Origin: Streptomonospora alba
Lineage (GTDB): Bacteria > Actinomycetota > Actinomycetes > Streptosporangiales > Streptosporangiaceae
Direction: 5' to 3'
Assembly (NCBI RefSeq): GCF_000826685.1
Contig: NZ_JROO01000055.1
Span: 1 to 45,386 of the forward strand
DNA length: 45,386 nt
A program made the position numbers and the translations under genes. The notes beneath the pieces were generated by a model. The model ran no database searches. It was not told where the DNA came from and saw only the letters and a program-made list of their open reading frames with translations. This document shows, in pieces, positions 20,467-42,754 of the stretch; position 1 is the stretch's first letter; every line of letters starts with the position of its first letter.

Positions 20467-22293
20467 TCAGCCGGTGCCGCCGTCCTCCCGCCCGGCCCGT
20501 GCGCGCTGTTCCACGGGGCCGTGCGTGCCCTGCAGGTGTATGGCGGTGTTGATCAGCGCGATGTGGGAGAGCGCCTGCGGGAAGTTGCCGATGAGCCGCC
20601 CGGCCCTCGTGTCGAACTCCTCGGACAGCAGGCCGACGTCGTTGCACAGGCCCAGCAGCCGCTCGAAGAGTTCCCTGCCCTCCTCCACGCGGCCCTGCAT
20701 CACCAGGTTGTCGGCCAGCCAGAACGAACACGGCAGGAACGCGCCCTCGCCCGGGGCCAGGCCGTCGAGATCGGCGCCGCCCGCGCCCGTGGTGTAGCGC
20801 TGCAGGAATCCGTCACGCGCGAGTTCCTCGCGGATCGCCGTGACCGTGCCCGTCATCCGCTCGTCGTCGGCCGGCAGGAACCCCAGCGTGGGCAACTGCA
20901 GCAAGGACGCGTCCATCGCCGGCGAATCGTAGGTCTGAGTGAACGCCCCCCGCGCGGGGTCGAAGCCGTTCTCGCAGACGTCGTCGAAGATCTCCTCGCG
21001 CAGACGCCGCCACCGCTCCACCGGTCCCGAAAGACCGAACTCCTCGACCGCCTTGACGGCGCGGTCCGCGGCCGTCCACGCCATGACCTTGGAGTGGGTG
21101 AACTGCCGCCGCCGTCCGCGCACCTCCCAGATCCCGTTGTCGGGATCGCGCCAGTGCTTCTCCAGGAATCCCATCAGCGCACACTGCAGCTCCCACACCG
21201 ACTCCTCCGGCGGGATGCCGTGGTTGCGTGCCTGGTGGAGCGCGTCCATCAGCTCGCCGTAGACGTCCAGCTGCCAGTGCCGCGACGCCTGGTTGCCCGT
21301 GCGCACCGGACGCGATCCGGCGTAGCCCGAGAGCCAGTCCAGCTCCACCTCGGGCAGGTGCCGCTCGCCCTCGATGCCGTACATGATCCGCATCTGGGCC
21401 GGTTCGCCGGCCACCGCGCGCAGCAGCCACTCCCGCCAGGCGGCGGCCTCCTCCTCGTAGCCGGAGTTGAGCAGCGCCAGCAGCGTGAAGGTGGCGTCGC
21501 GGATCCAGCAGTAGCGGTAATCCCAGTTGAGCCCTCCGCCCGGCTTCTCGGGCAGCGAGGTGGTGGGCGCTGCGACGGTGCCGCCGCTGGGGGAGTAGGT
21601 GAGCGCCTTGAGTGTGATCAGCGAGCGAACGACCTGGTCGCGGTAGGGGCCGTCGTACGCACATCGCTGCGCCCATCGCTGCCACCAGGTCGCGGTGCGT
21701 TCGATGGCCGCGGCCACGTCGATGCGCTCGGGCGGCGGACCGTGCGGCGAGACCCAGGCCAGGCGGAAGTCGACGTGTTCGCCCTCGCCGACGCTGAATT
21801 CGGCGGAGGGGAGCCTGCGCTCGCCGACGTCGAACTCGATGTCGGAGTCGAGGTAGAGGGCGTCGGGGCCGGCGACGAAGTGCAGGCGGCGGTCGTACTT
21901 GCGGGTCCAGGGAACGATGTCGCCGTAGTTCGGCCGCACCACCGCCTCCGTGCGCATCCGCACCCGTCCGCTGAGCCCTTCGACACGGCGCACCAGGTCG
22001 GGGTGCTCGTCGCGGACCGGCATGCAATCGGTGACACGCACGGTCCCGCCGTCGCAGCCGAAGTCGGTCTCCAGCACCAGGGTCTCGGGCCGGTAGCGCC
22101 GGCCGAGCAGCCGGTGCTCCTCGGCGGGCGCCATGCTCCAGTAGCCGTTGGAGGGCTCGCCCAGCAGACCGGTGAGGCACGCCCCGGAGTCGAACCGCGG
22201 CAGGCACAGCCAGTCGATGCAGCCGTCGGAGCCGATCAGCGCCGCGGTCTGGGTGTCGCCGATCAGCGCGTAGTCCTCGATGTTCAGCGGCAC
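20467..22293 (-). CDS. Glycoside hydrolase family 15 protein (glucoamylase/trehalase-like), copy 1
   Basis: A 608-residue cytosolic enzyme. The N-terminal beta-domain (IEDYALIGDTQTAALIGSDG, WLCLPRFDSGACL) precedes an (alpha/alpha)6 barrel with GH15 landmarks. These are NWDYRYCWIRDATF, the general-acid region NGIWEVRGRRRQFTHSK, KVMAWTAADRAV, and the general-base region LLSEEFDTRAGRLIGNFPQA. Members hydrolyse alpha-1,4-glucans or trehalose with inversion; actinobacterial members of this type include trehalases, so trehalose is a plausible substrate. The GTG start at 22293 has AAGGGAG eight bases upstream. The gene is a tandem paralogue of the gene at 22475-24298. Confidence 0.88.
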   Translation of the reverse strand: MPLNIEDYALIGDTQTAALIGSDGCIDWLCLPRFDSGACLTGLLGEPSNGYWSMAPAEEHRLLGRRYRPETLVLETDFGCDGGTVRVTDCMPVRDEHPDLVRRVEGLSGRVRMRTEAVVRPNYGDIVPWTRKYDRRLHFVAGPDALYLDSDIEFDVGERRLPSAEFSVGEGEHVDFRLAWVSPHGPPPERIDVAAAIERTATWWQRWAQRCAYDGPYRDQVVRSLITLKALTYSPSGGTVAAPTTSLPEKPGGGLNWDYRYCWIRDATFTLLALLNSGYEEEAAAWREWLLRAVAGEPAQMRIMYGIEGERHLPEVELDWLSGYAGSRPVRTGNQASRHWQLDVYGELMDALHQARNHGIPPEESVWELQCALMGFLEKHWRDPDNGIWEVRGRRRQFTHSKVMAWTAADRAVKAVEEFGLSGPVERWRRLREEIFDDVCENGFDPARGAFTQTYDSPAMDASLLQLPTLGFLPADDERMTGTVTAIREELARDGFLQRYTTGAGGADLDGLAPGEGAFLPCSFWLADNLVMQGRVEEGRELFERLLGLCNDVGLLSEEFDTRAGRLIGNFPQALSHIALINTAIHLQGTHGPVEQRARAGREDGGTG

Positions 22294-22474
22294 GCGGTCG
22301 TCTCCCTTCTGGGGCCCGCCACGGTGTGCGGGCTCGTGGACAGGGGCCCCGCCACGCTGCCGGACACCGTGCGGATACGGCGACGGAGATGCGGTACCGG
22401 TGCCCGGTTGCCCGTCGCCGCCCGGATAGGCCCGAAGGCGTGGCCGAGCGGCCGCAGAGGCCCCGGGCGGCGGT

Positions 22475-24298
22475 TCAGTCGCCCCGGCGCCTCTGCCCGG
22501 TCTGGGCACGCTCTTCGATGGGACCGTGCCCCCTCTCCAGCAGCAGGGCGGTGTTGACCAGCGCGATGTGGGAGAGCGCCTGCGGGAAGTTGCCGACCAT
22601 CCGCCCGGCCCTCGTGTCGAACTCCTCCGACAGCAGGCCGACGTCGTTGCACAGCCCCAGCAGCCGCTCGAACAGCTTGCGTCCCTCGTCGACGCGGCCC
22701 TGCATGATCAGGTTGTCGGCGAGCCAGAAGTTGCACGCCAGAAACGCGCCCTCGCCCGGCGGCAGGGCATCGACGTCGGGGCTGTCCTCGTCCGTCGAGT
22801 AGCGCTGCACCAGCCCGTCCTCGACGAGTTCGTTCTGGATCGCCTCGACGGTGCCCTTCATCCGCTCGTCGTCGGCGGGCAGGAACCCCACGGTGCTCAA
22901 CTGCAGCAGCGCCGCGTCCAGCGTCGAGGAACCGTAGGACTGGGTGAACGTCCCCCGCTCGGGGTCGAACGCGTTCTCGCAGACGTCGTCGAAGATCTCC
23001 TGGCGCATTCGCCGCCACCGGTCGGAGGGGCCCTCAAGGCCGAAGTCCTCCACCGCTTTGACCGCGCGATCGGCCGCCGTCCACGCCATCACATTGGAGT
23101 GGGTGAACTGCCGCGGCGGGCCCCGCACCTCCCAGATCCCGTTGTCGGGATCGCGCCAGTGGTCCTCCAGGTACTCCATGAGGGCGCGCTGTACATCCCA
23201 GGCGGGCGCGTGCGGCGGGATGCCGCGGCTGCGGGCGTGATGCAGCGCGTCCATCAGCTCTCCGTAGACGTCGAGCTGGCAGTGCCGCGCAGCGTGGTTG
23301 CCCACGCGCACCGGAGTGGAGCCCTCGTAGCCCGAGAGCCAGTCCAGTTCCATCTCGGGCAGCCGCCGCTCGCCCTCGATGCCGTACATGATGAGCATCT
23401 GCGCGGGTTCGCCGGCCACCGCGCGCAGCAGCCACTCCCGCCACGATCCGGCCTCCTCCTCGTAGCCGGAGTTCAAGAGCGCAAGCAGCGTCAGGGTGGC
23501 GTCGCGGATCCAGCAGTAGCGGTAATCCCAGTTGCGCACCCCGCCCAGCTGCTCGGGCAGGGAGGTGGTGGCGGCGGCGACGGTGCCCCCGCTCGGGTAG
23601 TAGGTCAGCGCCTTGAGCGTTATCAGGGAGCGCACCACTTCGTCGCGGTACTCGCCGTCGTAGTCGCAGTGGTGTGCCCACCCGCGCCACCACTCTTCGG
23701 TGCGCTCGATCTCGGCGCTGATGTCTGCGTCCTCCGGCGGCTCCGCGTTGGGGGCCACCCATGCCAGCCGGAAGTCGACGGTCTCCCCCTCGCCGACGGT
23801 GAACTCGGTGCAGGGGAGCCTGTGGTCGCCGAGATCGAACTCCACGTCGGAGTCGAGGTAGAGGGTGTCGGGGCCGGCGACGAAATGCAACCGGTTGCCG
23901 TACCTGCGGGTCCAGGGCACGATGGAGCCGTAGTCGGTACGCACCACCGCCTCGGAGCGGACGCGTACCCGGCCTTGGAGCCCTTGCACCCGGCGGACGA
24001 CATCGGGGTGCTCGTTGCGGAGCGGCATGCAGTCGATCACGCGCACGACGCCGTCGTCGCATTCGAAGTCGGTCTCCAGCACCAGAGTGTCGTGGCGGTA
24101 GCGCCGTCCGCGCAGCCGGTGCGGTACGGCCGGAGCCATGCTCCAGTACCCGTTGTCGCCGTCGCCGACCAGCTCGGCGAAGCACGCGGCGGAGTCGAAC
24201 CGGGGCAGGCACAGCCAGTCGATGCGGCCGTCGTTGCCTACGAGCGCCGCGGTCCCGGTGTCGCCGATCAGCGCGTAGTCCTCGATATGGAGGGACAC
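22475..24298 (-). CDS. Glycoside hydrolase family 15 protein (glucoamylase/trehalase-like), copy 2
   Basis: A 607-residue paralogue of the gene at 20467, nearly identical in length and co-linear throughout: IEDYALIGDTGTAALVGNDG, NWDYRYCWIRDATL, NGIWEVRGPPRQFTHSN, and LLSEEFDTRAGRMVGNFPQA. The catalytic glutamate regions are intact, so both copies should be active. The GTG start at 24296-24298 has AAGGAG nearby. The two genes are 181 bases apart and share similar 3' flanks, showing that the duplication included noncoding sequence. Substrate as for copy 1, with possible divergence between copies. Confidence 0.88.
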   Translation of the reverse strand: MSLHIEDYALIGDTGTAALVGNDGRIDWLCLPRFDSAACFAELVGDGDNGYWSMAPAVPHRLRGRRYRHDTLVLETDFECDDGVVRVIDCMPLRNEHPDVVRRVQGLQGRVRVRSEAVVRTDYGSIVPWTRRYGNRLHFVAGPDTLYLDSDVEFDLGDHRLPCTEFTVGEGETVDFRLAWVAPNAEPPEDADISAEIERTEEWWRGWAHHCDYDGEYRDEVVRSLITLKALTYYPSGGTVAAATTSLPEQLGGVRNWDYRYCWIRDATLTLLALLNSGYEEEAGSWREWLLRAVAGEPAQMLIMYGIEGERRLPEMELDWLSGYEGSTPVRVGNHAARHCQLDVYGELMDALHHARSRGIPPHAPAWDVQRALMEYLEDHWRDPDNGIWEVRGPPRQFTHSNVMAWTAADRAVKAVEDFGLEGPSDRWRRMRQEIFDDVCENAFDPERGTFTQSYGSSTLDAALLQLSTVGFLPADDERMKGTVEAIQNELVEDGLVQRYSTDEDSPDVDALPPGEGAFLACNFWLADNLIMQGRVDEGRKLFERLLGLCNDVGLLSEEFDTRAGRMVGNFPQALSHIALVNTALLLERGHGPIEERAQTGQRRRGD

Positions 24299-27333: not shown

Positions 27334-27774
27334 GCGGGTTGGAGCGAGGGAGGCGGAGAGCAGGGGCGCTGTACGGGTGGCGTCGGTCGGTCGGCGTGCG
27401 CGGACGGCGGGGTTGCCGACGGGGCGGCGACGGTCGGGGGACGGGACCATCCGCCCACCACCCTGGCTGTCCGCCGCCGCCCCGCCCTCGCCGGGTACGT
27501 GGCCGAGGTTCGCAGCACCGGCGAGTGAGATCCCACCCTCCCTGCCGCCCCTACCGGCCCCCTGACCTCCGCGTGCGGACGGCGGACCGCCGTGGCGGCG
27601 GAGAGGAGCGGGGTGAGGGGCACCACCCGAGGACTAAACGGGACGGGCGCGGATAGAGGCGTTCTGGGTATGAGGAGCACAGCAGTGCTCGGCGCCGCAG
27701 GCGCGCAGGAGCCGCTCGCCGGCTTCGCGCGTTCGCCGGTGTGCACGTCGTAGGCGGACAGGAGGTGCGTGTCC
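27334..27774. promoter_or_regulatory. Gene-free region upstream of the complex-I-like operon
   Basis: A 441-base stretch with no convincing gene, rich in GC triplet runs and a pyrimidine-rich patch near 27535-27570. It presumably carries the operon promoter. A TAGAGG box at 27654-27659 is followed by a 27-codon frame (27670-27753) that ends 21 bases before nuoA; whether it is translated is unknown. I see no clear operator. Confidence 0.35.
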
Positions 27775-28122
27775 GTGGACTCCTTCTGGCCCGCTCTCGC
27801 GCTGTTCGCGGTCGCATCCGCCGGGGTACTCGGACTCTACGGCGCCGCCGCGCTCCTCAGCGTCGGTGAACCGCTGGTGCGCGAACCGTACATGGGAGGC
27901 AGCCCTGTCTCCGAGCACGCCGTCTCGCGGTTCCACGTGCGGTGGTACGCCGTGACGCTGCTGTTCATCGCCTTCGACATGGAGATGGTCTTCATGTACC
28001 CGTGGGTGCTCGTCGTCGCCGAGAAGGGGATGCACGCCGTCGGCGAGATGTTCGGCTTCCTCGCCGTCCTGGTGGCCGCCGTCGTCTACGCGTGGCGGGA
28101 AGGGGCCTTCAGATGGACATGA
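27775..28122 (+). CDS. nuoA: NADH-quinone oxidoreductase subunit A-like protein
   Basis: A 115-residue three-helix membrane protein. The family signature is clear: FHVRWYAVTLLFIAFDMEMV followed by FMYPW. In place of the common YECG loop it reads EPYMGG, so the loop cysteine is absent. The GTG at 27775 is chosen because GGAGG (27761-27765) is nine bases away; the GTG at 27769 would be only three bases away. In complex I, NuoA with NuoH and NuoJ forms the quinone-channel end of the membrane arm. It is first gene of an eight-gene operon and its end overlaps the next gene by ten bases. Confidence 0.88.
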   Translation: MDSFWPALALFAVASAGVLGLYGAAALLSVGEPLVREPYMGGSPVSEHAVSRFHVRWYAVTLLFIAFDMEMVFMYPWVLVVAEKGMHAVGEMFGFLAVLVAAVVYAWREGAFRWT

Positions 28123-29672
28123 GGGCAGACGCCGCGGCGGACCGGACGACAGGCGTGAGCGGTATCGCCCGGTGGCTGGCGCACGTGTCGGCCCAGCGGC
28201 CGCTGCTCGTGACAGCGGTGGGCGGCACCGAGTGCCGCTTGGCCGTGGAGCGCGTCGTGCGGGAACGCGGCCTGCGCCGCGCGCTGAGCCCGAGCGAGGC
28301 GGACACGCTGGTGGAGTGCGGTCCCGCTGGATCGGGGGTCGACGAGGCGGCGGAGCGCGTCTGGGACCAGATGGGCGAACCGCGCGCACGGGTCCGGGTC
28401 CGTTCGGCGGAGGAGGCCGGCGCCCGGATCGACGAGGCGCGGATCGCGCTGCTGGATCTGCCCGCGCAGCGCCGTGCGGCGGCGCGCCGGACCGATGCGG
28501 ACCGCGTCGAAGACCAGGAATCGGCAGAGCCCGGGACCGACGACGGCGCCCAGACCGCGGACGAGGCCGAGGACCCCGGGCAGGATCGGCAGGACCGGCA
28601 CGACCACCGAGAGCACCGGGACCGGCAGGCCCGATCCCGCCATCACGACGGTCAGAGCCACCACGCTCACGAGGACCGGCAGGGCCACGGCCGGGACGAC
28701 GCGGAGGAGCACGAGCGGGCCCCCGGGCGGGGTGAGCACGGCGGTCACGGGAACGCTCATGGGCACGGTCAGGACCACGATCGTGAAGAAGAAGGCGGCG
28801 GCCAGGAGGACCACGAAGGCCACGACCACCACGACCACCACGGCATGGAGCTTCCCGGCGGCCTGGTGATGGCCGATCGTGGGGACGACCGGGACGGGCT
28901 GCGGCTCGACCGGCTGCACATCGCCATCGGGCCCGTACAGGCCGACTGGCCCGCAGGTCTGGTGCTCGGATTGACGGTCCAGGGCGACGTGGTGCAGGAA
29001 GCCGAAGTCGCCGTCCAGACGCCCTCCGTCGAGGACGTCTCCGTGTTCTGGGACGACATCGCCCGGGAGACCCTCGACCCCGGGGCGCTGCGGTTCCGTG
29101 CCGCCGCTTCGGCCGACTCGCTCCAGCGGTTCCTCGCCGTCGCCGGGTGGCCCGACGCCGCGGCGACAGGGCTCCTGCTGCGCGACACGCTGCTGGTTCC
29201 GGAGGGGCAGGCGACCGGGAGGACGCGGTTCACCCGCTGGCTTCGGCGGGTGCGCCGGTCGAAGCTGCTGCGGTGGTCGCTGCGCGGCCTCGGCCCCATT
29301 CCCGGCGGCGACCGACTCGCTGGACCGACCGAATCCTGGCCCGTCCCCGCACGCTTGCACGGAGACGCGGCGGCGCGCGTCGGGCGGTGGATCGACGACA
29401 TCGCCGCGGTGCTCATGCCCGACACCTCCGACACCTTCCTCGCGCCGCCCATCTCGCGAGAGCGGAGCGGCCCGCCCGCCGGCGGGCTCTCCTCCGCGCC
29501 GCCCTTCCCGCCGCTGGGCCGGGAGCGCGCCGAGTACGCCCGGGCCGCCGTGGCTCTCCTGCCGGACATGGTGGCCGGCCAGGAGCTGGCGGCCGTGCGG
29601 CTCGTCGTCGCCTCCCTCGATCCCGACCTGGAGTCGCTCGCCGTATACCTGCCCGAAGCCGCCCATGATTGA
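28113..29672 (+). CDS. Degenerate NuoB-like / His-rich linker / degenerate NuoD-like fusion protein
   Basis: A 519-residue protein; ATG 28113 has GGGAAGGGG seven bases upstream and overlaps nuoA. Residues about 15-110 follow the outline of NuoB or hydrogenase small subunits: LLVTAVGGTECRLAVERVV, SEADTLVECGP, then ERVWDQMGEPRARVRV, where the family has 'CCxxE', 'ADxxxVxG' and 'YDQMPEPKxV'. Only Cys41 and Cys69 remain, so N2-cluster ligation is lost. Residues about 155-245 are a histidine/aspartate/glycine linker with about 21 His. Residues 245-519 resemble NuoD or hydrogenase large subunits in their N-terminal (RLDRLHIAIGPVQADWPAGL) and C-terminal (VAGQELAAVRLVVASLDPDL) segments. The protein sits exactly where nuoB-nuoD would be. 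The assignment is by eye and needs profile and structure comparison. Confidence 0.75.
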   Translation: MDMRADAAADRTTGVSGIARWLAHVSAQRPLLVTAVGGTECRLAVERVVRERGLRRALSPSEADTLVECGPAGSGVDEAAERVWDQMGEPRARVRVRSAEEAGARIDEARIALLDLPAQRRAAARRTDADRVEDQESAEPGTDDGAQTADEAEDPGQDRQDRHDHREHRDRQARSRHHDGQSHHAHEDRQGHGRDDAEEHERAPGRGEHGGHGNAHGHGQDHDREEEGGGQEDHEGHDHHDHHGMELPGGLVMADRGDDRDGLRLDRLHIAIGPVQADWPAGLVLGLTVQGDVVQEAEVAVQTPSVEDVSVFWDDIARETLDPGALRFRAAASADSLQRFLAVAGWPDAAATGLLLRDTLLVPEGQATGRTRFTRWLRRVRRSKLLRWSLRGLGPIPGGDRLAGPTESWPVPARLHGDAAARVGRWIDDIAAVLMPDTSDTFLAPPISRERSGPPAGGLSSAPPFPPLGRERAEYARAAVALLPDMVAGQELAAVRLVVASLDPDLESLAVYLPEAAHD

Positions 29673-30606
29673 CGCCGACGACGCCGTGCACTGGTGGGGC
29701 CTGGTCCTCGCCCCCGCACTGCTGGCCGCCTACGCCTACGCCGCGGCGGCAGGCTCCGCGGCCCGGACGGCCCGCGCCTCGGGTGCGCCCGCCGCCGCGG
29801 CACTGGCCGCGCCGGCGCGCGAGGCGGCCGGGCTGCTGCTGCGCCGTCGGCGCACGGTGCCGGGCGCGGACACGCTGCTGTGGCGCGTCGGTATCGCGAG
29901 CGTGCCCGTGGCAGCGGTCATGGCCGTGCTGGTCGTTCCCGTCGGCGGACGGGCCATCGCCGACCTGTCCATCGGCGTCGTGTGGTTCAACGCCATGGAG
30001 GTCCTGCTGTGGGGCGGGATGTGGCTGGCCGGCTGGGGTGCGAACTCGGTCTGGGGACTGGTCGGCGGCTACCGGTACCTGATCCAGGGGCTCTCGCACG
30101 AGCTGCCGCACATGTTCGCCCTGACCACCGCCGCGGTGGGGGCCGGCTCGCTGCGTGTCGGCGACATCGCCGCCGCTCAGCAGGACGTGTGGTTCGTGCT
30201 CGTGATGCCCGCCGCCTTCGTCGTCTACCTGGTCTCGGCGCTGGCCATGTCCTTCTGGCCGCCGTTCGACCAGCCGGTGGGCCGCGACCTCTCCGGCGGG
30301 GCGGCCGCCGAGCCCTCCGGCCCGGACCGGCTGGTCCTGCTGGCGGGCCGCCACGCGATGCTCGCCGCCGCCGCGGCGATGGCCGTGCCGCTGTTCCTCG
30401 GCGGCGGCGCCGGTCCGCTGCTGCCGGGCTGGGCGTGGTCGCTGCTCAAGGCCGCCGCCGTGCTCGCGCTGCTGGTGTGGGCCGGCGGCCGGGTGCCGGC
30501 GGTGCGCATGGACCGGTTCGCCGAGGTGGGCTGGGTGGTGCTGCTTCCGCTGGTACTGCTGCAGGCGCTTGCGGTGTCCGTCTTCGTCGTCGCGGGTTGG
30601 ATGTGA
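29665..30606 (+). CDS. nuoH: NADH-quinone oxidoreductase subunit H-like protein
   Basis: A 313-residue membrane protein with about eight helices. NuoH identity rests on PAREAAGLLLRRRRTVPGAD (the PLADGLKLLxKED region), GWGANSVWGLVGGYR, GLSHELPHMFAL (SYELP motif) and PPFDQPVGRDL, where canonical NuoH has PFDLPEAESELVAG. The N-terminal QGRIGPNRVGP stretch and the acidic loop are missing or changed, so quinone-site residues are not conserved. Its ATG lies inside the end of the preceding gene (eight-base overlap). In complex I this subunit links the peripheral arm to the pumping modules. Confidence 0.85.
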   Translation: MIDADDAVHWWGLVLAPALLAAYAYAAAAGSAARTARASGAPAAAALAAPAREAAGLLLRRRRTVPGADTLLWRVGIASVPVAAVMAVLVVPVGGRAIADLSIGVVWFNAMEVLLWGGMWLAGWGANSVWGLVGGYRYLIQGLSHELPHMFALTTAAVGAGSLRVGDIAAAQQDVWFVLVMPAAFVVYLVSALAMSFWPPFDQPVGRDLSGGAAAEPSGPDRLVLLAGRHAMLAAAAAMAVPLFLGGGAGPLLPGWAWSLLKAAAVLALLVWAGGRVPAVRMDRFAEVGWVVLLPLVLLQALAVSVFVVAGWM

Positions 30607-30612
30607 TCGCTC

Positions 30613-31173
30613 ATGGCCGAGTGGACCGTCTTCGTCGTCTGCGCGGTGGCGGCCGTCGCCGCGGGCGCGGCCGTGTTCCGGGTGGATTCCATGGCCCGGG
30701 CCACGTTCGCGCTGCTGGCGTCGTTCGTCTTCACCGCCGTGCCGGTGCTGCTGCTCGACCTCGCCTACCTGGGCGTGCTGATCGTGCTGATGATGACCAT
30801 GGAGATGGTGGTCATGGCCGTCTTCATGATCATGTTCATGATGAACCCCGCCGGTCTGATGCCGATGACCATGGTGCACAACACCAAGGGCGCGCTGGCC
30901 ATATCGATCGCCGTCTTCTGCGTCCTGGCCGCCGGAGCCCTGCTGGTGCCGTGGCCGCGCGAGTCCGCACCGCCGCCCGCCGACCCCACGCTGCAGCTCG
31001 GCGAGGCGATCATGGGCGACGACATGCTGGTGATGATGGTCGCCGGCCTGGTGCTGTTCGCGACCATGGTCTCGGGGGTGGTCCTGGCCACCGGCCGCGG
31101 CCGCTACGACCGCTACGGCGACGATCTGCGCGGCCGCCCCGACGACCCGATCCGCGGGGGTGTGGGCCGGTGA
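30613..31173 (+). CDS. nuoJ: NADH-quinone oxidoreductase subunit J-like protein, Met-rich
   Basis: A 186-residue protein with five helices and the NuoJ pattern (FRVDSMARATFALLASFVFTAVP, AYLGVLIVL). In residues 60-87, covering the third helix and the next loop, 12 of 28 residues are methionine, with a Glu64 in the hydrophobic run. The C-terminal tail (GRGRYDRYGDDLRGRP) is polar. It starts six bases after nuoH with no clear ribosome site, so it is probably coupled, and shares TGATG with nuoK. Confidence 0.87.
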   Translation: MAEWTVFVVCAVAAVAAGAAVFRVDSMARATFALLASFVFTAVPVLLLDLAYLGVLIVLMMTMEMVVMAVFMIMFMMNPAGLMPMTMVHNTKGALAISIAVFCVLAAGALLVPWPRESAPPPADPTLQLGEAIMGDDMLVMMVAGLVLFATMVSGVVLATGRGRYDRYGDDLRGRPDDPIRGGVGR

Positions 31174-31475
31174 TGCTGGAGGCGTTCCTGCTGCTGGCCG
31201 CCGCGCTGCTGGCCGTGGGCCTGTACGGCGCGCTGAGCCAGCAGTCCGTCGTCATGGTCATGATGGGTCTGGAGCTGATGCTCAACGCGGTGATGGTCGC
31301 CGCCGCGGCCGTCTGGTTCCACACGTCGCCCCACTCGGCCGACGGGCAGCTGCTGGTGCTTGCGGCGATGCTGGCCATGGCGGTGGAGATGGCCATGGGG
31401 TTCGCGGTGACGATCGCGATCTTCCGCGCCCGCGACGTGGACGTGACCGACTCCGCCGGCGATCTGCGGGGCTGA
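31173..31475 (+). CDS. nuoK: NADH-quinone oxidoreductase subunit K-like protein
   Basis: A 100-residue three-helix protein, an MrpC homologue. The two membrane glutamates needed for proton transfer in NuoK are kept: Glu34 (MGLELMLNAV) and Glu72 (AVEMAMGFAV). The start ATG overlaps the nuoJ stop (TGATG). The length matches the family (about 100 residues). Confidence 0.92.
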   Translation: MLEAFLLLAAALLAVGLYGALSQQSVVMVMMGLELMLNAVMVAAAAVWFHTSPHSADGQLLVLAAMLAMAVEMAMGFAVTIAIFRARDVDVTDSAGDLRG

Positions 31476-31479
31476 GCCG

Positions 31480-33387
31480 ATGGGCGCGACGGATCCGGTG
31501 GACGCGGTGCTGTGGGTGCTGGTCGGCCTGCCCGCGCTGGCCGGTGCGGCCCTGCTGCTCGGCGGGCGGCGAGCCGAGCGCGCCGCAGCGCCCGCCGCCA
31601 CGGCCGTCGCCGTGGCCCTGGCCGTACCCGCCGCGGTCGCGGCGGTCCATCGCCCGGCGGTGACGGCGCCCGCGCTTCCCGGCATCCCGTTCGGGCTGGC
31701 CGTGGACGGCCTGGCGGCGATCGGCGTGTGCACCCTGGTCGCCGTCTTCGCGGCCGTGGTCGTGTTCTCCGCCGGCGAGCGCGAAGGAGCCGGCGGCCGC
31801 TCCCGCTACTACGGGCTGCTGCTGCTCTTCGCCGCGGCCATGCTGGCGACCGTCACGGCCACCGACCTGTTCACCCTGCTGATGGCCTGGGAGGTCATGG
31901 GCGCGACCTCCTACGGGCTGATCGCCTTCCACTGGCGCCATCCGCGCACCGGATCCTCGGCCGCCGTCTCCTTCCTGACCACGCGCACCGCCGACCTGGG
32001 GATGTACGCGGCCGCGGGTGCCGCTCTGGCGGGCGGCGCCCGCGGATTGGACCTGGGCGAGCTGGCGGGGGTGAGCGGGCCGTGGGACCACGTGGTCGCC
32101 GGCGGGCTGCTGGCCGCGGCCCTGGGCAAGGCCGCCCAGCTGCCGTTCTCCTTCTGGCTGTCGCGCGCCATGGACGGGCCCAGCCCGGTCTCGGCGCTGC
32201 TGCATTCGGCGACGATGGTGGCCGCCGGCGGGTACCTGCTGCTGCGCGTCGAGCCGGCGCTGGCCGCGACCGGGTGGGCCGGTCCCGCTGCCGCCTGGAT
32301 CGGCGCCTCGACAGCCCTGGTGATGGGCGCCGTCGCCTGCGTCCAGCACGACCTCAAGCAGCTGCTCGCCGCCTCGACCAGCGCCCAGCTCGGGTTCGTC
32401 GTCCTGGCCGCCGGCGTCGGCGGCGTGGCCGGCGGCGCGGCCCAGTTCGCTGCGCACGCGGCCGCCAAGAGCCTGCTGTTCCTCGTCGCCGGCCTCTGGC
32501 TGGCCCGACTGGGCACGAAGCACTTGGCGGAGCTGCGCGGCGCCGCGCGCGGACACCCGCTGGCGGGAACGTGCTTCACGGCGGGCGCACTCGCGCTGGG
32601 CGGGATGCCGCCGTTGTCGCTGTGGGCGGCCAAGGACCTCGTCCTGGCCGCGGCCGAGCCCCCCGGCCTGCACGCCGCGGGCCTGGCGGCCTCGGCGCTG
32701 GCGGCGGGCTACGCGGGAGTGGCGCTGGCGGCGGTGTGGTCCAGCCCGGCCCCCGCCGCGTCGGTGCGCACCGCCGGCGGTGCGGGGCCGGGAGACGCAC
32801 GCCATGCCTTCGCCGAACGGCTGCCCCTGATCGCGCTCGCCACCGCCGCCGTGGTAACGGGTGCGCTGGCGCTGCCCGCCGTCGGGCACGCGTGGAGCCT
32901 CCTGCTGGGCCGCCCGGGGGCGCCCGCGCCCGGACTCGGCGAGGCGGCGGTGTCCGCGCTGATCGCGGTGGTCGTCCTCGCCGCGGTGATGCTGATCGGC
33001 ATCCGCCGGGGTGTACCCGCGGAGGCCGCCGAACGGCGGGGCGTGCGCCCACTGCGTGCCTGGCTGGGGCTGGAACCCGCCGCAGGCGCCCTGGTGGTCG
33101 CACCGGTGCTCGCTGCGGCCCGCGGCCTGGCGGCCTTCGACGACCGCGTTGTGGACCGCGCCGTGACGGGCGCGGCGTCCGGCGTCCCCCGCCTCGCCGG
33201 CGTCGTGGGCAGGCGTGTCGAGCCCGCGGTGGAGGCGGTGGTCGCGGCGGTGGCCACCGGCGCCCGGGGACTCGGGGATTACGCGCGCCGCCCGCAGACC
33301 GGCCAAGCCCACCAGTACTACGCCCAGGCCGTGACCGCCCTCCTGGTCGCCGCACTGGTCTTCGTCCTCGCCGGCGCGGTGATGTGA
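31480..33387 (+). CDS. nuoL: NADH-quinone oxidoreductase subunit L-like proton-translocating protein
   Basis: A 635-residue antiporter-like subunit. Channel residues are retained: Glu138 in LLMAWEVMGATSYG, the lysine in ALGKAAQLPFSFWL, SALLHSATMVAAGGYLLLR, QHDLKQLLAASTSAQLGF, and AAHAAAKSLLFLVAG. The C terminus ends with the usual RPQTGQAHQYY-then-helix segment, so the lateral helix is likely present. It starts four bases after nuoK. The length is close to E. coli NuoL (613). Proton pumping through this subunit looks feasible. Confidence 0.92.
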   Translation: MGATDPVDAVLWVLVGLPALAGAALLLGGRRAERAAAPAATAVAVALAVPAAVAAVHRPAVTAPALPGIPFGLAVDGLAAIGVCTLVAVFAAVVVFSAGEREGAGGRSRYYGLLLLFAAAMLATVTATDLFTLLMAWEVMGATSYGLIAFHWRHPRTGSSAAVSFLTTRTADLGMYAAAGAALAGGARGLDLGELAGVSGPWDHVVAGGLLAAALGKAAQLPFSFWLSRAMDGPSPVSALLHSATMVAAGGYLLLRVEPALAATGWAGPAAAWIGASTALVMGAVACVQHDLKQLLAASTSAQLGFVVLAAGVGGVAGGAAQFAAHAAAKSLLFLVAGLWLARLGTKHLAELRGAARGHPLAGTCFTAGALALGGMPPLSLWAAKDLVLAAAEPPGLHAAGLAASALAAGYAGVALAAVWSSPAPAASVRTAGGAGPGDARHAFAERLPLIALATAAVVTGALALPAVGHAWSLLLGRPGAPAPGLGEAAVSALIAVVVLAAVMLIGIRRGVPAEAAERRGVRPLRAWLGLEPAAGALVVAPVLAAARGLAAFDDRVVDRAVTGAASGVPRLAGVVGRRVEPAVEAVVAAVATGARGLGDYARRPQTGQAHQYYAQAVTALLVAALVFVLAGAVM

Positions 33388-33501: not shown

Positions 33502-35031
33502 GTGTTATCCGTCGTCGTCTTCCTTCCCCTGCTGGCCGCCGGCGTGCTGCTGGCGGCGCCGCGGCTCTCCGCCCGGGCCGTGCTCACGACGTGGACCGCC
33601 GCAGCGGCAGTCGACCTGGTGCTGGTGGGCGTGCTGTGGAGCGGCTACGTCGACTCGGGCGGCAAGGGGACCGCCGGCACGCGGCTTGCCGGGCCGACGG
33701 CGTATGAGACCGACCTGGAGTGGATCCCCAGCCTCGGGTCCGGCTACCACATCGGCGTCGACGGCCTCTCCCTGCCGCTCGTAGCGATGACCGCGGTGCT
33801 GTTCCTGGCCTGCGCGGTCTACTCGCTGCGCGACAGGCCGGAGCGCCCGCGCGGCTACGCGGCGGTGTTCCTCGCGCTGCAGACGGTCTCCACCGGGCTG
33901 TTCGTCGCGCTGGACCTGCTGCTGTTCTTCGTCTTCTTCGACCTGTCCATCGCGCTGATGTACTTCGTCATCGCCGGATGGGGGCACGGCGACCCAGCCC
34001 GTTCGGCGCTGCGCTTCTTCCTCTACACCTTCGTGGGCTCGCTGGCGCTTCTGGTCGGGTTCATCGGCCTCTACCTGGCCGCCGACCCGCACACCTTCGA
34101 CATGGTCGACCTGGCCGCCCAGAACCCGCTGGGCGGGCGCGCCGCGGCGGGCGGCGCGGTGCTGCTGGCCGTGGGCCTGGGGCTGGCGGTGAAAACGCCG
34201 ATCGTGCCCTTCCACACCTGGCTGCCGCCCGCGCACACCGACGCGCCCGCCGTCGGCTCCGCGATCCTGGCCGGGGTGCTGCTGAAGATGGGCGCCTACG
34301 GCTTCATCCGCATCGCGCTGCCGATCCTGCCCGAGGCCTGGCGGGCCTGGGCGCCGGCCATCGCGCTGATCGGCGCGGTCTCGGTCCTCTACGGCGCCCT
34401 GGTGGCGCTGGCCCAGAACGACTTCAAACGCATGGTCGCCTACACCTCGGTCAACCACATGGGCTATGTGGTGCTGGGCCTGGGAGCGGCGGGCACGGCC
34501 GCGGCGGGTACCGCTCCCGCCGCTGCCGAGCTGGCCATCACCGGCGCGGCGGTGCAGCTGGTCAGCCACGGTCTACTCACCGGCGCGCTGTTCCTGCTCG
34601 CCGGGGTGCTGTACACGCGTGGCGGGGGCTACGACATGGGCGCCTACAGCGGCCTCGCCGGGCCCGCGCCCCGATTCGCCGCCGTGCTGGCCGTGGCGGT
34701 CTTCGGCTCGCTGGGGCTTCCCGGGCTTTCGGGCTTCATCGCCGAGTTCCAGGTCTTCACCGGTGGCCTGGGCCTGGCGCCGGTGCCCACCGCCCTGGCG
34801 CTGCCCGGGATCCTCATCACCGCCGCGCTGCTGCTGCGCGCACTGCAGCGGCTGCTCCTGGGGCCCCGCGTGCTGCCGCCGGGAACCGGATTCGGCGACC
34901 TGCGGCCGCAGGAGAGCGCGGCGATCGTTCCGCTGCTGGCCCTGTCGGTGGTGATCGGGCTGCTGCCGCGGACCCTGCTCGACGTCCTGGCGCCGGCGGC
35001 CGAAGCGGTCGCCGCCCTGGTGCTGCGGTAG
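33502..35031 (+). CDS. nuoM: NADH-quinone oxidoreductase subunit M-like proton-translocating protein
   Basis: A 509-residue antiporter-like subunit with HIGVDGLSLPLV, VKTPIVPFHTWLPPAHTDAP, LLKMGAYGFIRI, ALAQNDFKRMVAYTSVNHMG and the VSHGLLTGALFLLAG helix. The TM5 acid that is Glu144 in E. coli is Asp147 here (LLFFVFFDLSIALMYF). The GTG start at 33502 has GAGGTG upstream. The other proton-channel lysines and histidines visible by eye are conserved. Confidence 0.92.
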   Translation: MLSVVVFLPLLAAGVLLAAPRLSARAVLTTWTAAAAVDLVLVGVLWSGYVDSGGKGTAGTRLAGPTAYETDLEWIPSLGSGYHIGVDGLSLPLVAMTAVLFLACAVYSLRDRPERPRGYAAVFLALQTVSTGLFVALDLLLFFVFFDLSIALMYFVIAGWGHGDPARSALRFFLYTFVGSLALLVGFIGLYLAADPHTFDMVDLAAQNPLGGRAAAGGAVLLAVGLGLAVKTPIVPFHTWLPPAHTDAPAVGSAILAGVLLKMGAYGFIRIALPILPEAWRAWAPAIALIGAVSVLYGALVALAQNDFKRMVAYTSVNHMGYVVLGLGAAGTAAAGTAPAAAELAITGAAVQLVSHGLLTGALFLLAGVLYTRGGGYDMGAYSGLAGPAPRFAAVLAVAVFGSLGLPGLSGFIAEFQVFTGGLGLAPVPTALALPGILITAALLLRALQRLLLGPRVLPPGTGFGDLRPQESAAIVPLLALSVVIGLLPRTLLDVLAPAAEAVAALVLR

Positions 35032-35041
35032 GCGGGGCGCC

Positions 35042-36469
35042 ATGACGACCACGACGCTGATCGCGCTCCTGCCCGAGGCGGCGCTGGCCGCCGCCGCGGT
35101 CGCCGGGCTGCTGCTGGGCAGCTGGCTGCCCCGCCGCCGCCAGTGGGCGGTGCGCGCCCTCGCGCTGACCGCCGTCGCCGCCGGGCTGGCCGCCACCGCC
35201 TTCGCGGCAGCGGGCCCGCCCCACACCGCCTCATCGGGATCCTGGGCCGTCGACACCGGACTGCACGCCGCGCGCGTCGCCGTGCTGGTGGGCACGGGGC
35301 TTGTGGTGCTGGCCGGATCCGACAGCCTCGCCGGTGCCCGCCGTGAAAGCGAGGCCTACGTCCTGATGCTGCTCGCGGCGGTGGGCTCCCTGGTCCTGGC
35401 CGGCGCGAACGGGCTGCTCGTGCTGGTCATGGGCTATCTGCTGGCGAGTATTCCGCTCTATGCCATGGTCGCCTTCGCCAAAGACGCGCCCGGTACCGAG
35501 GCGGGCCTGAAGTACTTCCTGATGGGCGCCCTGTTCGGCGTGGTGCTGCTGGGCGGGACGACGGTGCTGCTCGGCGCGGGCGGCGCCACCGACTACCTCC
35601 CGCTGGCCGCCGGACTGCCCGGGGCGCCGCGTGCGGCCGCCGCGGCCGGGGCCGTCGCGGTGCTGGCGGCGCTGCTGTTCAAGGCGGGGGCGGTGCCCGC
35701 CCACTTCTGGGTGCCCGACGCCGCCGAGGGCGCACCGGCGCCCGTCGCCGCGTTCATCACCACCGTGCCCAAGATCGGCGCGCTGGTGGCGGCCTACCGG
35801 CTCGGCGCCGCGCTGCCGCTGGAGGCCGTCGGCGACTGGTCGCTGCTGGTGGCGGCGGCCGCGGCCGCCACCATGGTGCTGGGCAACCTCGCCGCCTTCG
35901 CCCAGCACCGTGTCCGCCGGCTGCTGGCCTACTCCACCATCGGCCAGGTGGGGTTCCTGCTGATGGCGGTGGCGGCCTACGGGCGTGCGGAAGAGGCGCT
36001 GCCGGGTCTGCTGTACTACCTGCTCGCCTACACCGTTACCAACATCGGCGCGTTCGCCGCGGTGTGCGCGCTGCCCCGGGCCGAGCGCCTCGACCAGTGG
36101 GGAGGACTGTTCGGCCGCCGCCCCTGGCTCGCCCTCAGCCTGGTGGTATGCCTGCTCGGCCTGGTCGGGACACCGCCGACCGCGGTGTTCGTCGGCAAGC
36201 TGACCGTGTTCACCGCCGCGTTCGACGCGGGAATGGTGTGGCTGGTGGTGCTGGCCGCGACGATGACCGTGGCCAGCCTGTTCTACTACCTGCGCTGGAT
36301 CCTGCCGCTGTTCCGCGCGGCGGATCCGCATGCACAGAGCGCCGGTGCGGATTCGGCCGGGGGGTGGAGCACCGCCGTGGCCGTGGCCGCGGCCACGCTG
36401 TCACTGCTGCTGGGCGTGGCCGCCGGGCCGGTGCTGGACTGGCTGGGCAGCGGTGCCCTGGCGGGGTGA
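35042..36469 (+). CDS. nuoN: NADH-quinone oxidoreductase subunit N-like protein
   Basis: A 475-residue antiporter-like subunit. Landmarks are TEAGLKYFLMGALFGVVLLG, LFKAGAVPAHFWVPDAAEGA, FITTVPKIGALVA, RVRRLLAYSTIGQVGFLL and LLGLVGTPPTAVFVGKL. In the TM5 position, where the family has a buried glutamate (LGLELLS-type), the sequence is LVMGYLLASIPLY with Leu133. It is the last gene of the operon, convergent with the DHFR-like gene. ATG 35042 has GGCGGGG nearby. Confidence 0.92.
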   Translation: MTTTTLIALLPEAALAAAAVAGLLLGSWLPRRRQWAVRALALTAVAAGLAATAFAAAGPPHTASSGSWAVDTGLHAARVAVLVGTGLVVLAGSDSLAGARRESEAYVLMLLAAVGSLVLAGANGLLVLVMGYLLASIPLYAMVAFAKDAPGTEAGLKYFLMGALFGVVLLGGTTVLLGAGGATDYLPLAAGLPGAPRAAAAAGAVAVLAALLFKAGAVPAHFWVPDAAEGAPAPVAAFITTVPKIGALVAAYRLGAALPLEAVGDWSLLVAAAAAATMVLGNLAAFAQHRVRRLLAYSTIGQVGFLLMAVAAYGRAEEALPGLLYYLLAYTVTNIGAFAAVCALPRAERLDQWGGLFGRRPWLALSLVVCLLGLVGTPPTAVFVGKLTVFTAAFDAGMVWLVVLAATMTVASLFYYLRWILPLFRAADPHAQSAGADSAGGWSTAVAVAAATLSLLLGVAAGPVLDWLGSGALAG

Positions 36470-37288: not shown

Positions 37289-38359
37289 TCAGTCCCCGGC
37301 CGGGTCCTGCGCGCCCTGCTCGCCGCCGTCGCCGCCTTCCTGCGCGGCGGCCCGTTCGCGGTCGCGGATGCGCTGCCGCTGCGGGACGACCGTGTACTTG
37401 GGGTCGGCCGCCGAGTCCTGGCCCGCCTTGAAGACGCCGAACCGGGTACACGCCGAGCCCGCCACCAGTGCCGCACCCGCGATCGCCGACACCGTGCGGC
37501 TGCGACCGCCCACCAGCGCCCCCACCGCGCCGCCGATCGTCAGCACCTTGGCCGCACGCATCAGCGCCCCGCCGCGCCCCTGCTTGTAGGGCTCGGCGAT
37601 CATGCCCATGCGCCGTTCCATCGTCGCCACCGCCGCGTTCTCCAGCGCCGATCCCACCACGCCCGCGCGCCGAGCGGGACCCGCCTGGCCCACCGGCGCC
37701 GTGATCATGCCCATGCCTCCGGCCGCGGCGGCGCCGGAGCCCACGAACACGAACGGCATCTCCCGGTATCCCTCGTGCCATGCGGGCACTGCGGTGTTGC
37801 AGATCAGCGGGGCGGTGTAGGCGGCCACGGCCGGGCCGATCGCGCCCGCGCCCAGCCCCGCCAGGCGGCCCGCGCCCGGCAGGATGCCGGTGGCCTGGGA
37901 GACCGCCGCCGCGCCGGCGAGCGGGCCGTAGCACACCAGGATCCAGGTGCCCACGCTCATCGGGGAGGTCCACTTGATCACCCGCAGCATGTTCAGGAAC
38001 CGCTCCGGACGCCCCAGGTCGTGGATCAGCGCCGCCAGCGACCCCGAGACGGCCCCCAGCGCGGTGTAGCGCAGCGGCCGCGCCAGGTCCGGTCGCCCGG
38101 TCAGGTCGGCGCCGGCCGCCAGCACCGACGAGGCGCCGGCCAGGCCGCCCAGGAACAGGTAACCGCCGATGTCCTGCGGTTTCCAGGTGATCTGGTTGAG
38201 CACCGGCTGGTCGTAGTAGGACCGGAACTCCGAGCCGCCGCCGCGGCCACGATCGGGGCTCTCCCGGGACCGGTGCCCGTCCGAGACCGCGCCGGTCATC
38301 GCCTCGCGGCCGGGCCGGGCGCCGCGGATGCCCTCCTTGGTCACGTCCGAAGTGCTCAA
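37289..38359 (-). CDS. NrfD/PsrC-type membrane subunit of formate dehydrogenase
   Basis: A 356-residue multi-helix protein. A polar N terminus (about 1-55) is followed by roughly eight hydrophobic segments, with family motifs IGGYLFLGGLAGASSVLAAG, DLGRPERFLNMLRVIK and TSPMSVGTWIL, and a C-terminal SACTRFGVFKAGQDSAADP segment also typical of actinobacterial formate dehydrogenase operons. It would pass electrons from the Fe-S subunit to the quinone pool and bind no haem. The start is TTG at 38357-38359, overlapping the Fe-S subunit stop (TTGA), with GGGGAGG about six bases upstream. It replaces the cytochrome b subunit (FdoI/FdnI) of enterobacteria. Confidence 0.87.
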   Translation of the reverse strand: MSTSDVTKEGIRGARPGREAMTGAVSDGHRSRESPDRGRGGGSEFRSYYDQPVLNQITWKPQDIGGYLFLGGLAGASSVLAAGADLTGRPDLARPLRYTALGAVSGSLAALIHDLGRPERFLNMLRVIKWTSPMSVGTWILVCYGPLAGAAAVSQATGILPGAGRLAGLGAGAIGPAVAAYTAPLICNTAVPAWHEGYREMPFVFVGSGAAAAGGMGMITAPVGQAGPARRAGVVGSALENAAVATMERRMGMIAEPYKQGRGGALMRAAKVLTIGGAVGALVGGRSRTVSAIAGAALVAGSACTRFGVFKAGQDSAADPKYTVVPQRQRIRDRERAAAQEGGDGGEQGAQDPAGD

Positions 38360-39294
38360 CGCCGCCTCCCCAGGAACGTCGCGGTGATTCCGGCCAGCAG
38401 CGTCGCCGCGGCGACGCCGGCGTGGCGCCACATCGACGGCAGGTCGCGTGTGGTCACCACAGGGTCGGGCGGCAGGCCGTAGACCTCCGGATCCTCCAGC
38501 AGCAGGAAGAACGCGCCGTCGCCGCCGACGCCGTCGTCGGGGTCGCGGCCGTAGAGCTGCGCGGAGCCGATGCCGTGCTCGTGCAGGTTGCGCAGCCGCT
38601 CGTCGGCGCGCTCGCGCAGTTCGTCCAGGTCGCCGTACTGGATCGAGTCGGTCGGGCAGGCCTTGGCGCACGCCGGCTCCATGCCCTCGCCCAGCCGGTC
38701 GTAGCACAGCGTGCACTTCCACACGCGGCCGTCGTCCTTGCGCTGGTCGATCACCCCGTAGGGGCAGGCCGGCACGCAGTAGCCGCAGCCGTTGCAGATG
38801 TCCTCCTGCACCACGACGGTGCCGTACTCGGTGCGGAACAGCGACCCCGTCGGGCACACGTCCAGGCAGGCGGCGTGGGTGCAGTGCTTGCACACGTCGG
38901 AGGACATCAGCCAGCGGAACTCGCCGCGCTCGTCCTCACCGGTGTAGGCGCCGGGCAGGTCGAATGAGGGCATGCCCAGGTCCACGGAGTCGGGCGCGCC
39001 CTCGGGGCGGCCCAGATTGGTCTCCTGGGCGCCCAGGGGAGCGCGCTGCTCGATGAAGGCGACGTGGCGCCAGGTGTCGGCTCCGAGCCCGCTGGTGTTG
39101 TCGAAGGACATCGCGGTGAAGTCCAGCCCGTCCTCGGGCACCAGGTTCCATTCCTTGCAGGCGACCTCGCAGGCCTTGCACCCGATGCACACGCTCGTGT
39201 CGGTGAAGAACCCCATGCGCGGGCGGTCGTCCTGCGGATCCGCGGCGCTCTCGGGTACGCCGGTGCGCACACCGGACTGCTCGTCCAGGGCCAT
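38356..39294 (-). CDS. Formate dehydrogenase iron-sulfur (beta) subunit
   Basis: A 312-residue ferredoxin-type subunit with four cysteine motifs for four [4Fe-4S] clusters: CIGCKACEVAC, CKHCTHAACLDVC, CNGCGYCVPAC, and CTLC with the PACAKAC pair. A single C-terminal helix (about 285-308, MWRHAGVAAATLLAGITATF) anchors it. It relays electrons from the molybdenum subunit to the NrfD-like subunit. ATG 39294 has GGAGG eight bases upstream and follows the catalytic gene by three bases. Confidence 0.92.
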   Translation of the reverse strand: MALDEQSGVRTGVPESAADPQDDRPRMGFFTDTSVCIGCKACEVACKEWNLVPEDGLDFTAMSFDNTSGLGADTWRHVAFIEQRAPLGAQETNLGRPEGAPDSVDLGMPSFDLPGAYTGEDERGEFRWLMSSDVCKHCTHAACLDVCPTGSLFRTEYGTVVVQEDICNGCGYCVPACPYGVIDQRKDDGRVWKCTLCYDRLGEGMEPACAKACPTDSIQYGDLDELRERADERLRNLHEHGIGSAQLYGRDPDDGVGGDGAFFLLLEDPEVYGLPPDPVVTTRDLPSMWRHAGVAAATLLAGITATFLGRRR

Positions 39295-39297
39295 GCC

Positions 39298-42540: not shown

Positions 42541-42754
42541 CGCCTCTCCTCCGCCTGATGCACTGGTCGGGCCGACGGGCACGCGGACGGACCGCTGTGC
42601 TCGTAGGGCGACCGGCCGCTACCCCTCCGGAGTGACGGCAAACACAGGCCGCGCCGTGCTGGAAGCGGCGGTGAAAGCGCCGGTGGGCGGGTCCTGCGGG
42701 CAGCGCTTGAGGCGGGTGCGCAGACCGCCGCCGTCGTCGGCGTCCGCTGAAACG

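Follow-up and report, generated by a model that had tools for sequence, protein, structure and literature searches.

What can the membrane arm of respiratory complex I still do once the subunits that feed it with electrons are missing or have lost their ligands? This question is raised by a gene of Streptomonospora alba, on contig NZ_JROO01000055.1 (GCF_000826685.1), of which a stretch of 45,386 nt was analysed as a whole (hereafter, the window). The gene encodes a fusion of a degenerate NuoB domain, a histidine-rich linker and a degenerate NuoD domain, here called BD, and it occupies the second position in an operon with the order nuoA-[BD]-HJKLMN. As relatives of this operon are often found among copper-resistance genes, our results suggest that complex I parts, i.e. 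a respiratory machine, have been reused to handle toxic copper. Our preferred explanation is a redox-dead complex I, predicted to bind cytosolic copper for copper tolerance and probably driven by the proton gradient, a statement which, taken as a whole, we consider slightly better than an even bet. A role of the operon in copper handling is in itself quite likely; that the proton gradient drives copper movement is a prediction whose chances we put somewhat short of even.

The gene and its parts are located in the window as follows:
28113..29672, + strand: BD protein (degenerate NuoB domain, His-rich linker, degenerate NuoD domain)
28200..28454, + strand: NuoB-like domain lacking the four cysteines of the cluster, residues about 30-114 (profile matches to solved NuoB chains; confident in the AlphaFold2 model)
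28572..28841, + strand: His-rich linker, residues 154-243, with 21 His (low model confidence over residues 147-245)
28878..29669, + strand: NuoD-like domain, residues 256-519, strongly shortened (AlphaFold2, Foldseek, relatives)

The open reading frame (ORF) encodes 519 residues, with cysteines only at positions 41 and 69. Of its 25 histidines, 21 fall within residues 154-243, the densest stretch of 90 residues, and none of 20000 shuffles of the protein matched this density. The ORF, its coordinates, the two cysteines and the His-rich run had been described in an initial annotation of this DNA, and all were correct on recount. Both ATG 28113 and GTG 28155 are candidate start codons, and the ends of the gene overlap the 3' end of nuoA and the 5' end of nuoH. 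An antisense ORF of 526 aa across the gene was taken as an artefact of the high GC content.

The same annotation had proposed a NuoB-like N-terminal half and a NuoD-like C-terminal half, an origin borne out by profiles, by Foldseek of the predicted structure and by divergent relatives. Searched alone against Pfam, the window BD protein hit no family, neither Complex1_49kDa (PF00346) nor PF19335 reaching its gathering score, and it was only weakly matched by TIGR01957 (NuoB; E = 0.053). A profile of 11 homologues searched against the PDB (E up to 10) matched 42 distinct sequences, 41 of the NuoB type and one unrelated. No NuoD was found among these 42, and 32 of the NuoB-type matches had an E value <0.001 (best 1.9e-6). 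With a 13-row profile including divergent relatives, the E value was 6.8e-13 for NdhH, the counterpart of NuoD, and 2.4e-10 for the best NuoB chain. Moreover, of eight divergent relatives, which belong to other classes of the phylum, six passed the Pfam cut-off of Complex1_49kDa (PF00346). The NuoD-like nature of the C-terminal half is therefore settled by these eight divergent relatives, through Pfam and the 13-row profile. The AlphaFold2 model (59-row alignment; mean predicted local distance difference test score, pLDDT, 78.5) is confident for the NuoB-like part and for most of residues 256-519, with pLDDT <50 for residues 147-245. When this model was compared with the PDB by Foldseek, the best 50 of 414 matches (E up to 10) were without exception chains of the NuoD or NuoB type from the complex I superfamily, the best E value being 1.4e-3, with none of the matches shown at or below 0.001.

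A profile search of genome contigs confirmed at least 348 relatives, of which the best 80, all from actinomycetes according to their titles, were kept; this sample therefore leans towards close relatives. NuoB requires four cysteines for cluster N2, the number present in the canonical NuoB of this genome. Among 86 aligned BD proteins, the NuoB part contains zero to three cysteines and never four or more, so that the loss of the cluster cysteines, first noted for the window protein, holds in all 86 proteins. The position of Cys69 is a cysteine in only 52 of the 86 proteins and is aligned with an alanine in Thermus NuoB (2fug_6); Cys69 is therefore not a cluster ligand. As for the NuoD side, the histidines of the GPxHPxxxH motif are not kept in the BD alignments, which are weak in that stretch. 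These results support the proposal of a scaffold of NuoB/NuoD origin, without cluster ligands, in place of the catalytic B/C/D core.

Linker composition was computed from the 86 BD proteins. The linker has a median length of 104 residues and contains 14.7% His (1.9% outside the linker), 5.6% Met and 20.7% acidic residues. The metal-binding function attributed to it by the initial annotation is probable, but its His-richness is not universal: His makes up at least 10% of the linker in 66 of the 86 proteins, and 13 have fewer than 5 linker His. The linker of one locus (L057) is made of MDHGGM/MDMSDHG-type repeats. In three of the eight divergent BD proteins (L113, L114 and L119), a heavy metal binding domain (HMBD; PF19335) was identified inside the linker, with E values of 2.9e-13, 9.5e-15 and 2.1e-27, respectively, and the HMBD stretch of L114 matches the solved copper P-type ATPases 8ovl and 3rfu. 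By eye, the motif CPMHP..CGM was found five times in Sulfitobacter, three times in Paracoccus, and twice each in Nitratireductor and Rubrobacter tropicus.

The metal-binding region can sit on different subunits (BD, NuoJ, NuoK). Roseivivax, Acuticoccus and Halomonas combine a Gly/Met-rich BD linker with a His-rich tail at the end of NuoJ. On plasmids of Rhodopseudomonas BAL398 and Methylobacterium fujisawaense, nuoA and nuoH directly adjoin each other and an insertion rich in His and Met is present in NuoJ; no search for a BD gene was made elsewhere. The operons of this kind are:
L136, 7437-14795: nuoAHJKLMN without BD, His/Met-rich insertion in NuoJ
L137, 7446-14774: nuoAHJKLMN without BD, His/Met-rich insertion in NuoJ
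We then scanned the eight operon proteins of the 80 actinomycete loci for His clusters, defined as at least 5 His in 30 residues. Such a cluster is found in BD at 67 loci and in NuoK at four, all of them Nocardiopsis with a poor BD linker; the clusters in NuoJ (four loci) and NuoL (one locus) come on top of that in BD. Judging from the topology of complex I, the locations of these metal-binding elements would face the cytosol.

The initial annotation had named Ni, Zn, Cu or Co as the possible metal of the linker. This range can be narrowed, since the enrichment of the neighbourhood, the plasmid regions and the HMBDs indicate that the metal is most probably copper. In an unsupervised clustering of the neighbours at the 80 loci, the families that recurred most often included DUF305, P-type ATPase, F510_1955, BlaI, multicopper oxidase and CsoR (names were taken from Pfam, by eye or from plasmid annotation); others, e.g. 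MFS, NLPC_P60 and PALP, were also recurrent. At least one of seven copper-type families, of which DUF305, BlaI and M56 are in part presumed to be such, is present at 46 of the 80 loci, and a stricter set of five families gives 41; the small HMA reference may also match the N-terminus of CopA. As a genome-wide control, we hand-picked 40 of the genomes of these loci (298 Mb), in which 148 DUF305 and 158 TIGR01511 matches were found. DUF305 lies near the operon at 15 of the 40 loci vs. 0.29 expected by chance, and a heavy-metal P-type ATPase (TIGR01511) at 11 vs. 0.32, the latter expectation being raised because ATPases scoring below the family cut-off are part of the set, which was taken at E 1e-60.

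Plasmids display the same genes. The window BD protein matched 14 actinobacterial plasmid records, and a divergent BD protein matched 132, including proteobacterial and Rubrobacter ones; most of these 132 are rhizobial, and the named rhizobial rows shown are canonical nuoD. We viewed 17 plasmid regions, 9 from the 14 former records and 8 from the search with the divergent protein. Named copper/heavy-metal genes (P-type ATPase, CsoR/CueR, multicopper oxidase, CopB/C/D) were found in 12 of them, in Alphaproteobacteria, Gammaproteobacteria and Rubrobacteria among others. The remaining five comprise one region without usable annotation (L128), one with BlaI/M56 (L020), one with DUF305 (L122) and two with none of these (L023, L124). 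Four further regions contain a canonical Sinorhizobium operon, two operons that lack BD and share their stretch with DUF305, and a Sulfitobacter operon that is truncated. Separately, a BlaI-like palindrome pattern was observed upstream of nuoA at 4 of 81 loci (L030, L031, L094 and L096; 0.4 expected).

The family is widespread, occurring in actinomycetes, in other classes of Actinomycetota and on proteobacterial plasmids. The BD profile had matches in 240 of 396 genomes, which is not a count of the family because the profile also matches canonical NuoB. At E values up to 2.5e-10, the rows came from the genome itself, from 3 genomes of its class and from 23 of other classes, some of them through the linker only. 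Eight of these 23 were examined, and all eight contain a nuo operon of the BD type; in L113, L114 and L119, BLAST gave no match for NuoJ. In a tree of 60 NuoM rows (50 different), rooted at midpoint and with one long canonical row (L149), the BD-type operons, including those without BD, form one clade of 41 rows (100/99), set apart from the other 19 rows, canonical and of a third type (100/99). The proteobacterial rows with a BD gene fall in two groups alongside other Actinomycetota classes, and this placement suggests that the operon was transferred between phyla. The third NuoM type (L163-L168; 6 rows) occurs in several Actinomycetota genomes, in a clade of its own distinct from the canonical and copper-linked types.

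Around BD, the window encodes seven membrane subunits:
27769..28122, + strand: NuoA-like subunit (PF00507, E 2.9e-24)
29665..30606, + strand: NuoH-like subunit with an altered quinone-side loop (PF00146, E 3.2e-42; alignment to E. coli NuoH)
30613..31173, + strand: NuoJ-like subunit (tblastn with annotated NuoJ)
31170..31475, + strand: NuoK-like subunit, both membrane Glu kept (similarity search, residue alignment)
31480..33387, + strand: NuoL-like antiporter-type subunit (PF00361, E 1.2e-44)
33502..35031, + strand: NuoM-like antiporter-type subunit (residue alignment, NuoM tree)
35042..36469, + strand: NuoN-like antiporter-type subunit, Glu of transmembrane segment 5 (TM5) replaced by Leu (residue alignment)

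No NuoC, E, F, G or I was found within the window operon, and the NADH module likewise has no place in the annotated plasmid operons; a shared module could be encoded elsewhere. One canonical NuoB above the family cut-off is located on another contig of the S. alba genome, with NuoA, H, L, M and N matches in the same stretch; the window operon is therefore an additional system. Over the 80 loci, some of which are cut by contig ends, the subunits were found 80 (NuoA), 79 (H), 79 (J), 78 (K), 78 (L), 77 (M) and 77 (N) times. On the 3' side of the window operon, FdhA, FdhB and, by eye, an NrfD-like anchor are encoded on the opposite strand (37300-42582, -), and formate dehydrogenase (FDH) genes are also close to the operon in L104, L105, L107, L065 and L125 (Halomonas KO116). 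Three Nonomuraea loci (L060, L078, L083) have a nirB-like gene and a weak FdhA match, perhaps a nitrate reductase, upstream of nuoA. The window also contains two neighbouring genes of glycoside hydrolase family 15 (trehalase-like) at 20467-24298 (-).

We then investigated the residues of the proton path, in a first alignment of 78-81 rows per subunit and in a second one of 17 further members with two canonical controls; residue numbering and roles are those we assume for E. coli. The Lys/Glu path in L, M, K and A is near-completely conserved. The transmembrane Asp and Glu of NuoA are present in 81/81 rows, and in NuoK the Glu and the second acid (Glu/Asp) are each found in 79/79. NuoL keeps its Glu in 78/79 rows and its two Lys in 79/79 each, and NuoM its Asp/Glu and Lys in 79/79 and its second Glu in 78/79. 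The three Lys of NuoN are found in 75, 78 and 77 of 78 rows, and Lys214 is a Glu in 5 of the 17 further members. The TM5 Glu of NuoN, present in both canonical controls, is replaced by Leu (77/78) or Met (1/78) in the first alignment and by L, V or Q in all 17 further members. In NuoH, Glu216 is kept in 78/80 rows; Glu146 is also kept in 78/80 rows, yet is a Glu in only 2 of the 17 further members. The first acid of the EAE loop is non-acidic in 80/80 rows and an Asp in 8 of the 17 further members, the later acid is an Asp in 78/80 rows, and the Asp of the PFD motif is found in 23/80.

We thus observed a membrane arm with conserved proton-path residues, located in copper-rich neighbourhoods and mostly bearing a metal-binding element at the head end. 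In the mechanism that we propose, the arm (A, H, J, K, L, M, N) would no longer be given electrons, and the BD head, on the cytosolic face at the NuoB/D site of complex I, would bind Cu(I). Protons flowing inward through L/M(/N) may then drive a conformational cycle at the H/A/J/K/BD end. This cycle could expel the bound copper from the cytosol or pass it to a partner such as CopA, and the system would serve copper tolerance.

Several observations weigh against this explanation. None of the seven copper-type families is present at 34 of the 80 loci, nor is any copper-type reference family within the 45 kb of the window or at L104, L105, L107 and L108. Among seven related loci, only L106 (CsoR-like, 36% identity), L109 (BlaI) and L110 (P-type ATPase, 42%) are positive. 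Some islands contain genes for other metals (cadmium and ArsR; merB and a nickel transporter; ArsR/SmtB), and a CsoR-type operator upstream of nuoA was not found beyond chance (1/81 vs. 0.35 expected). At 9 of the 80 loci, including Nocardiopsis L049 and L065, none of the eight proteins has a His cluster. As for the arm, the NuoN TM5 Glu is missing in every member examined, and the TM12 Lys of NuoL is a Glu in 3 of the 17 further members (L118, L136, L137). No copper path through the membrane was identified, and the copper role, deduced from genes and sequences, is a putative one.

The main rival to proton-driven copper export is a copper-gated proton valve or sensor, in which Cu(I) on the head would open or close proton flow, i.e. 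a control of pH or of the proton gradient under copper stress, copper itself not being transported. The copper context and the metal-binding elements fit this explanation equally well, the proton residues are kept, and the failure to identify a copper pathway is in its favour. Against it we have nothing more specific than the cost of a seven-subunit membrane arm for a sensor, and we regard it as a serious, though rather unlikely, alternative. Sensing or recruitment of metal, the roles considered for the linker by the initial annotation, agrees with the data as well as transport does. Less likely than either proton-driven export or the valve are two explanations that keep electrons in the system. 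The former quinone site might serve for electron transfer between quinone and the bound copper, e.g. when quinol reduces Cu(II) in a step coupled to proton pumping. Copper is redox active, NuoH is present with Glu216 in 78/80 rows, and an acid is kept at position 208. However, the cysteines are too few for a NuoB cluster, the first acid of the NuoH EAE loop is replaced in 80/80 rows and the GPxHPxxxH histidines of NuoD are lost in the alignments (weak there), which makes such a copper redox function improbable. Feeding of the arm by the nearby FDH is more improbable still. FdhA/FdhB are close to the operon in the window and in L104, L105, L107 and L065, and in Halomonas KO116 fdhF lies ~5 kb 3' of it. 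Among the 80 loci, however, FdhB was found at one only and FdhA at four, three of these being weak matches beside nirB; the window FDH, judged by eye, comes with an NrfD-like anchor of its own and is encoded on the opposite strand, and BD has too few cysteines for a cluster. FDH as an electron partner was therefore mostly rejected, because of its rarity in the 80 loci, its own anchor and its strand.

The remaining explanation is the published one, in which the operon would pump protons or sodium as an adaptation to marine or osmotic conditions. It has the merit that many of the listed non-rhizobial proteobacterial carriers come from marine samples. Nevertheless, many carrier genera are not, to our knowledge, marine, no redox-built gradient is possible without electron input, and the copper neighbours and the HMBD are left unexplained. 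The seven nuo genes were reported as a ‘partial NDH-1 operon’ and read as a marine adaptation in marine Salinispora by Penn and Jensen 2012 (PMC3314556), and the marine/osmotic reading is also found for Streptomyces (PMC4018334, PMC6676996) and Kocuria (PMC6002675), according to the parts of these papers available to us. In these parts, copper-rich mine fluid is given by PMC6676996 itself as the origin of one strain with the operon, and ‘copper miner’ by PMC6002675 as the source of a carrier, neither text drawing a link between the operon and copper. A marine or osmotic pump appears to us only slightly less improbable than the copper redox function.

This ‘partial NDH-1 operon’ (nuoAHJKLMN) is most probably the operon described here, as compared by gene content; the available parts of the publications mention neither the BD gene nor a copper link. 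We found no report of a NuoB/NuoD fusion or of a copper link of this operon in the open-licence literature, and the available part of a paper on metals in Mycobacterium abscessus deals with an ordinary nuo operon only.

The system resembles complex I in its seven homologous membrane subunits, which follow the nuo order, in its conserved proton residues and in a head derived from B/D. It differs from complex I in lacking NuoC, E, F, G and I, enough N2 cysteines and the NuoN TM5 Glu, and in possessing a metal-binding element and a separate NuoM clade. The Ehr complexes are relatives of complex I that have also lost catalytic ligands; they keep Fe-S clusters in their small subunit, whereas BD has lost the Fe-S ligands as well. 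The HMBD (PF19335) of copper P-type ATPases occurs in divergent BD proteins, but fused between the NuoB- and NuoD-like domains, and its place is taken by a His-rich stretch in the window protein. Mrp antiporters and DabAB are likewise redox-free uses of Nuo-type antiporter subunits, and the window NuoL matches MrpA and DabB2 chains. Unlike them, the BD operon has NuoA, NuoH, a B/D relic and metal-binding regions; the presence of NuoA and NuoH distinguishes it from an Mrp antiporter (MrpA-G without NuoH and NuoA), MrpE/F/G not having been searched for. We tentatively propose, with no more than a fair minority of our confidence, that it represents a third case in which the complex I arm is used without redox chemistry: a predicted proton-gradient-driven Cu(I)/Ag(I) pump with a copper-binding head replacing the quinone/Fe-S head, spread by plasmids in two phyla, and with a metal-binding region mobile among subunits.

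If this is true, the coupling machinery of complex I would be able to run without redox chemistry, on a soluble metal-binding head. As all members examined have an altered NuoN, the family would also provide a natural test of the coupling between the E-channel and the antiporter subunits. The marine-adaptation reading of these nuo genes would be replaced, and bacterial copper tolerance would gain a widespread component, often carried on plasmids, that has been overlooked until now.
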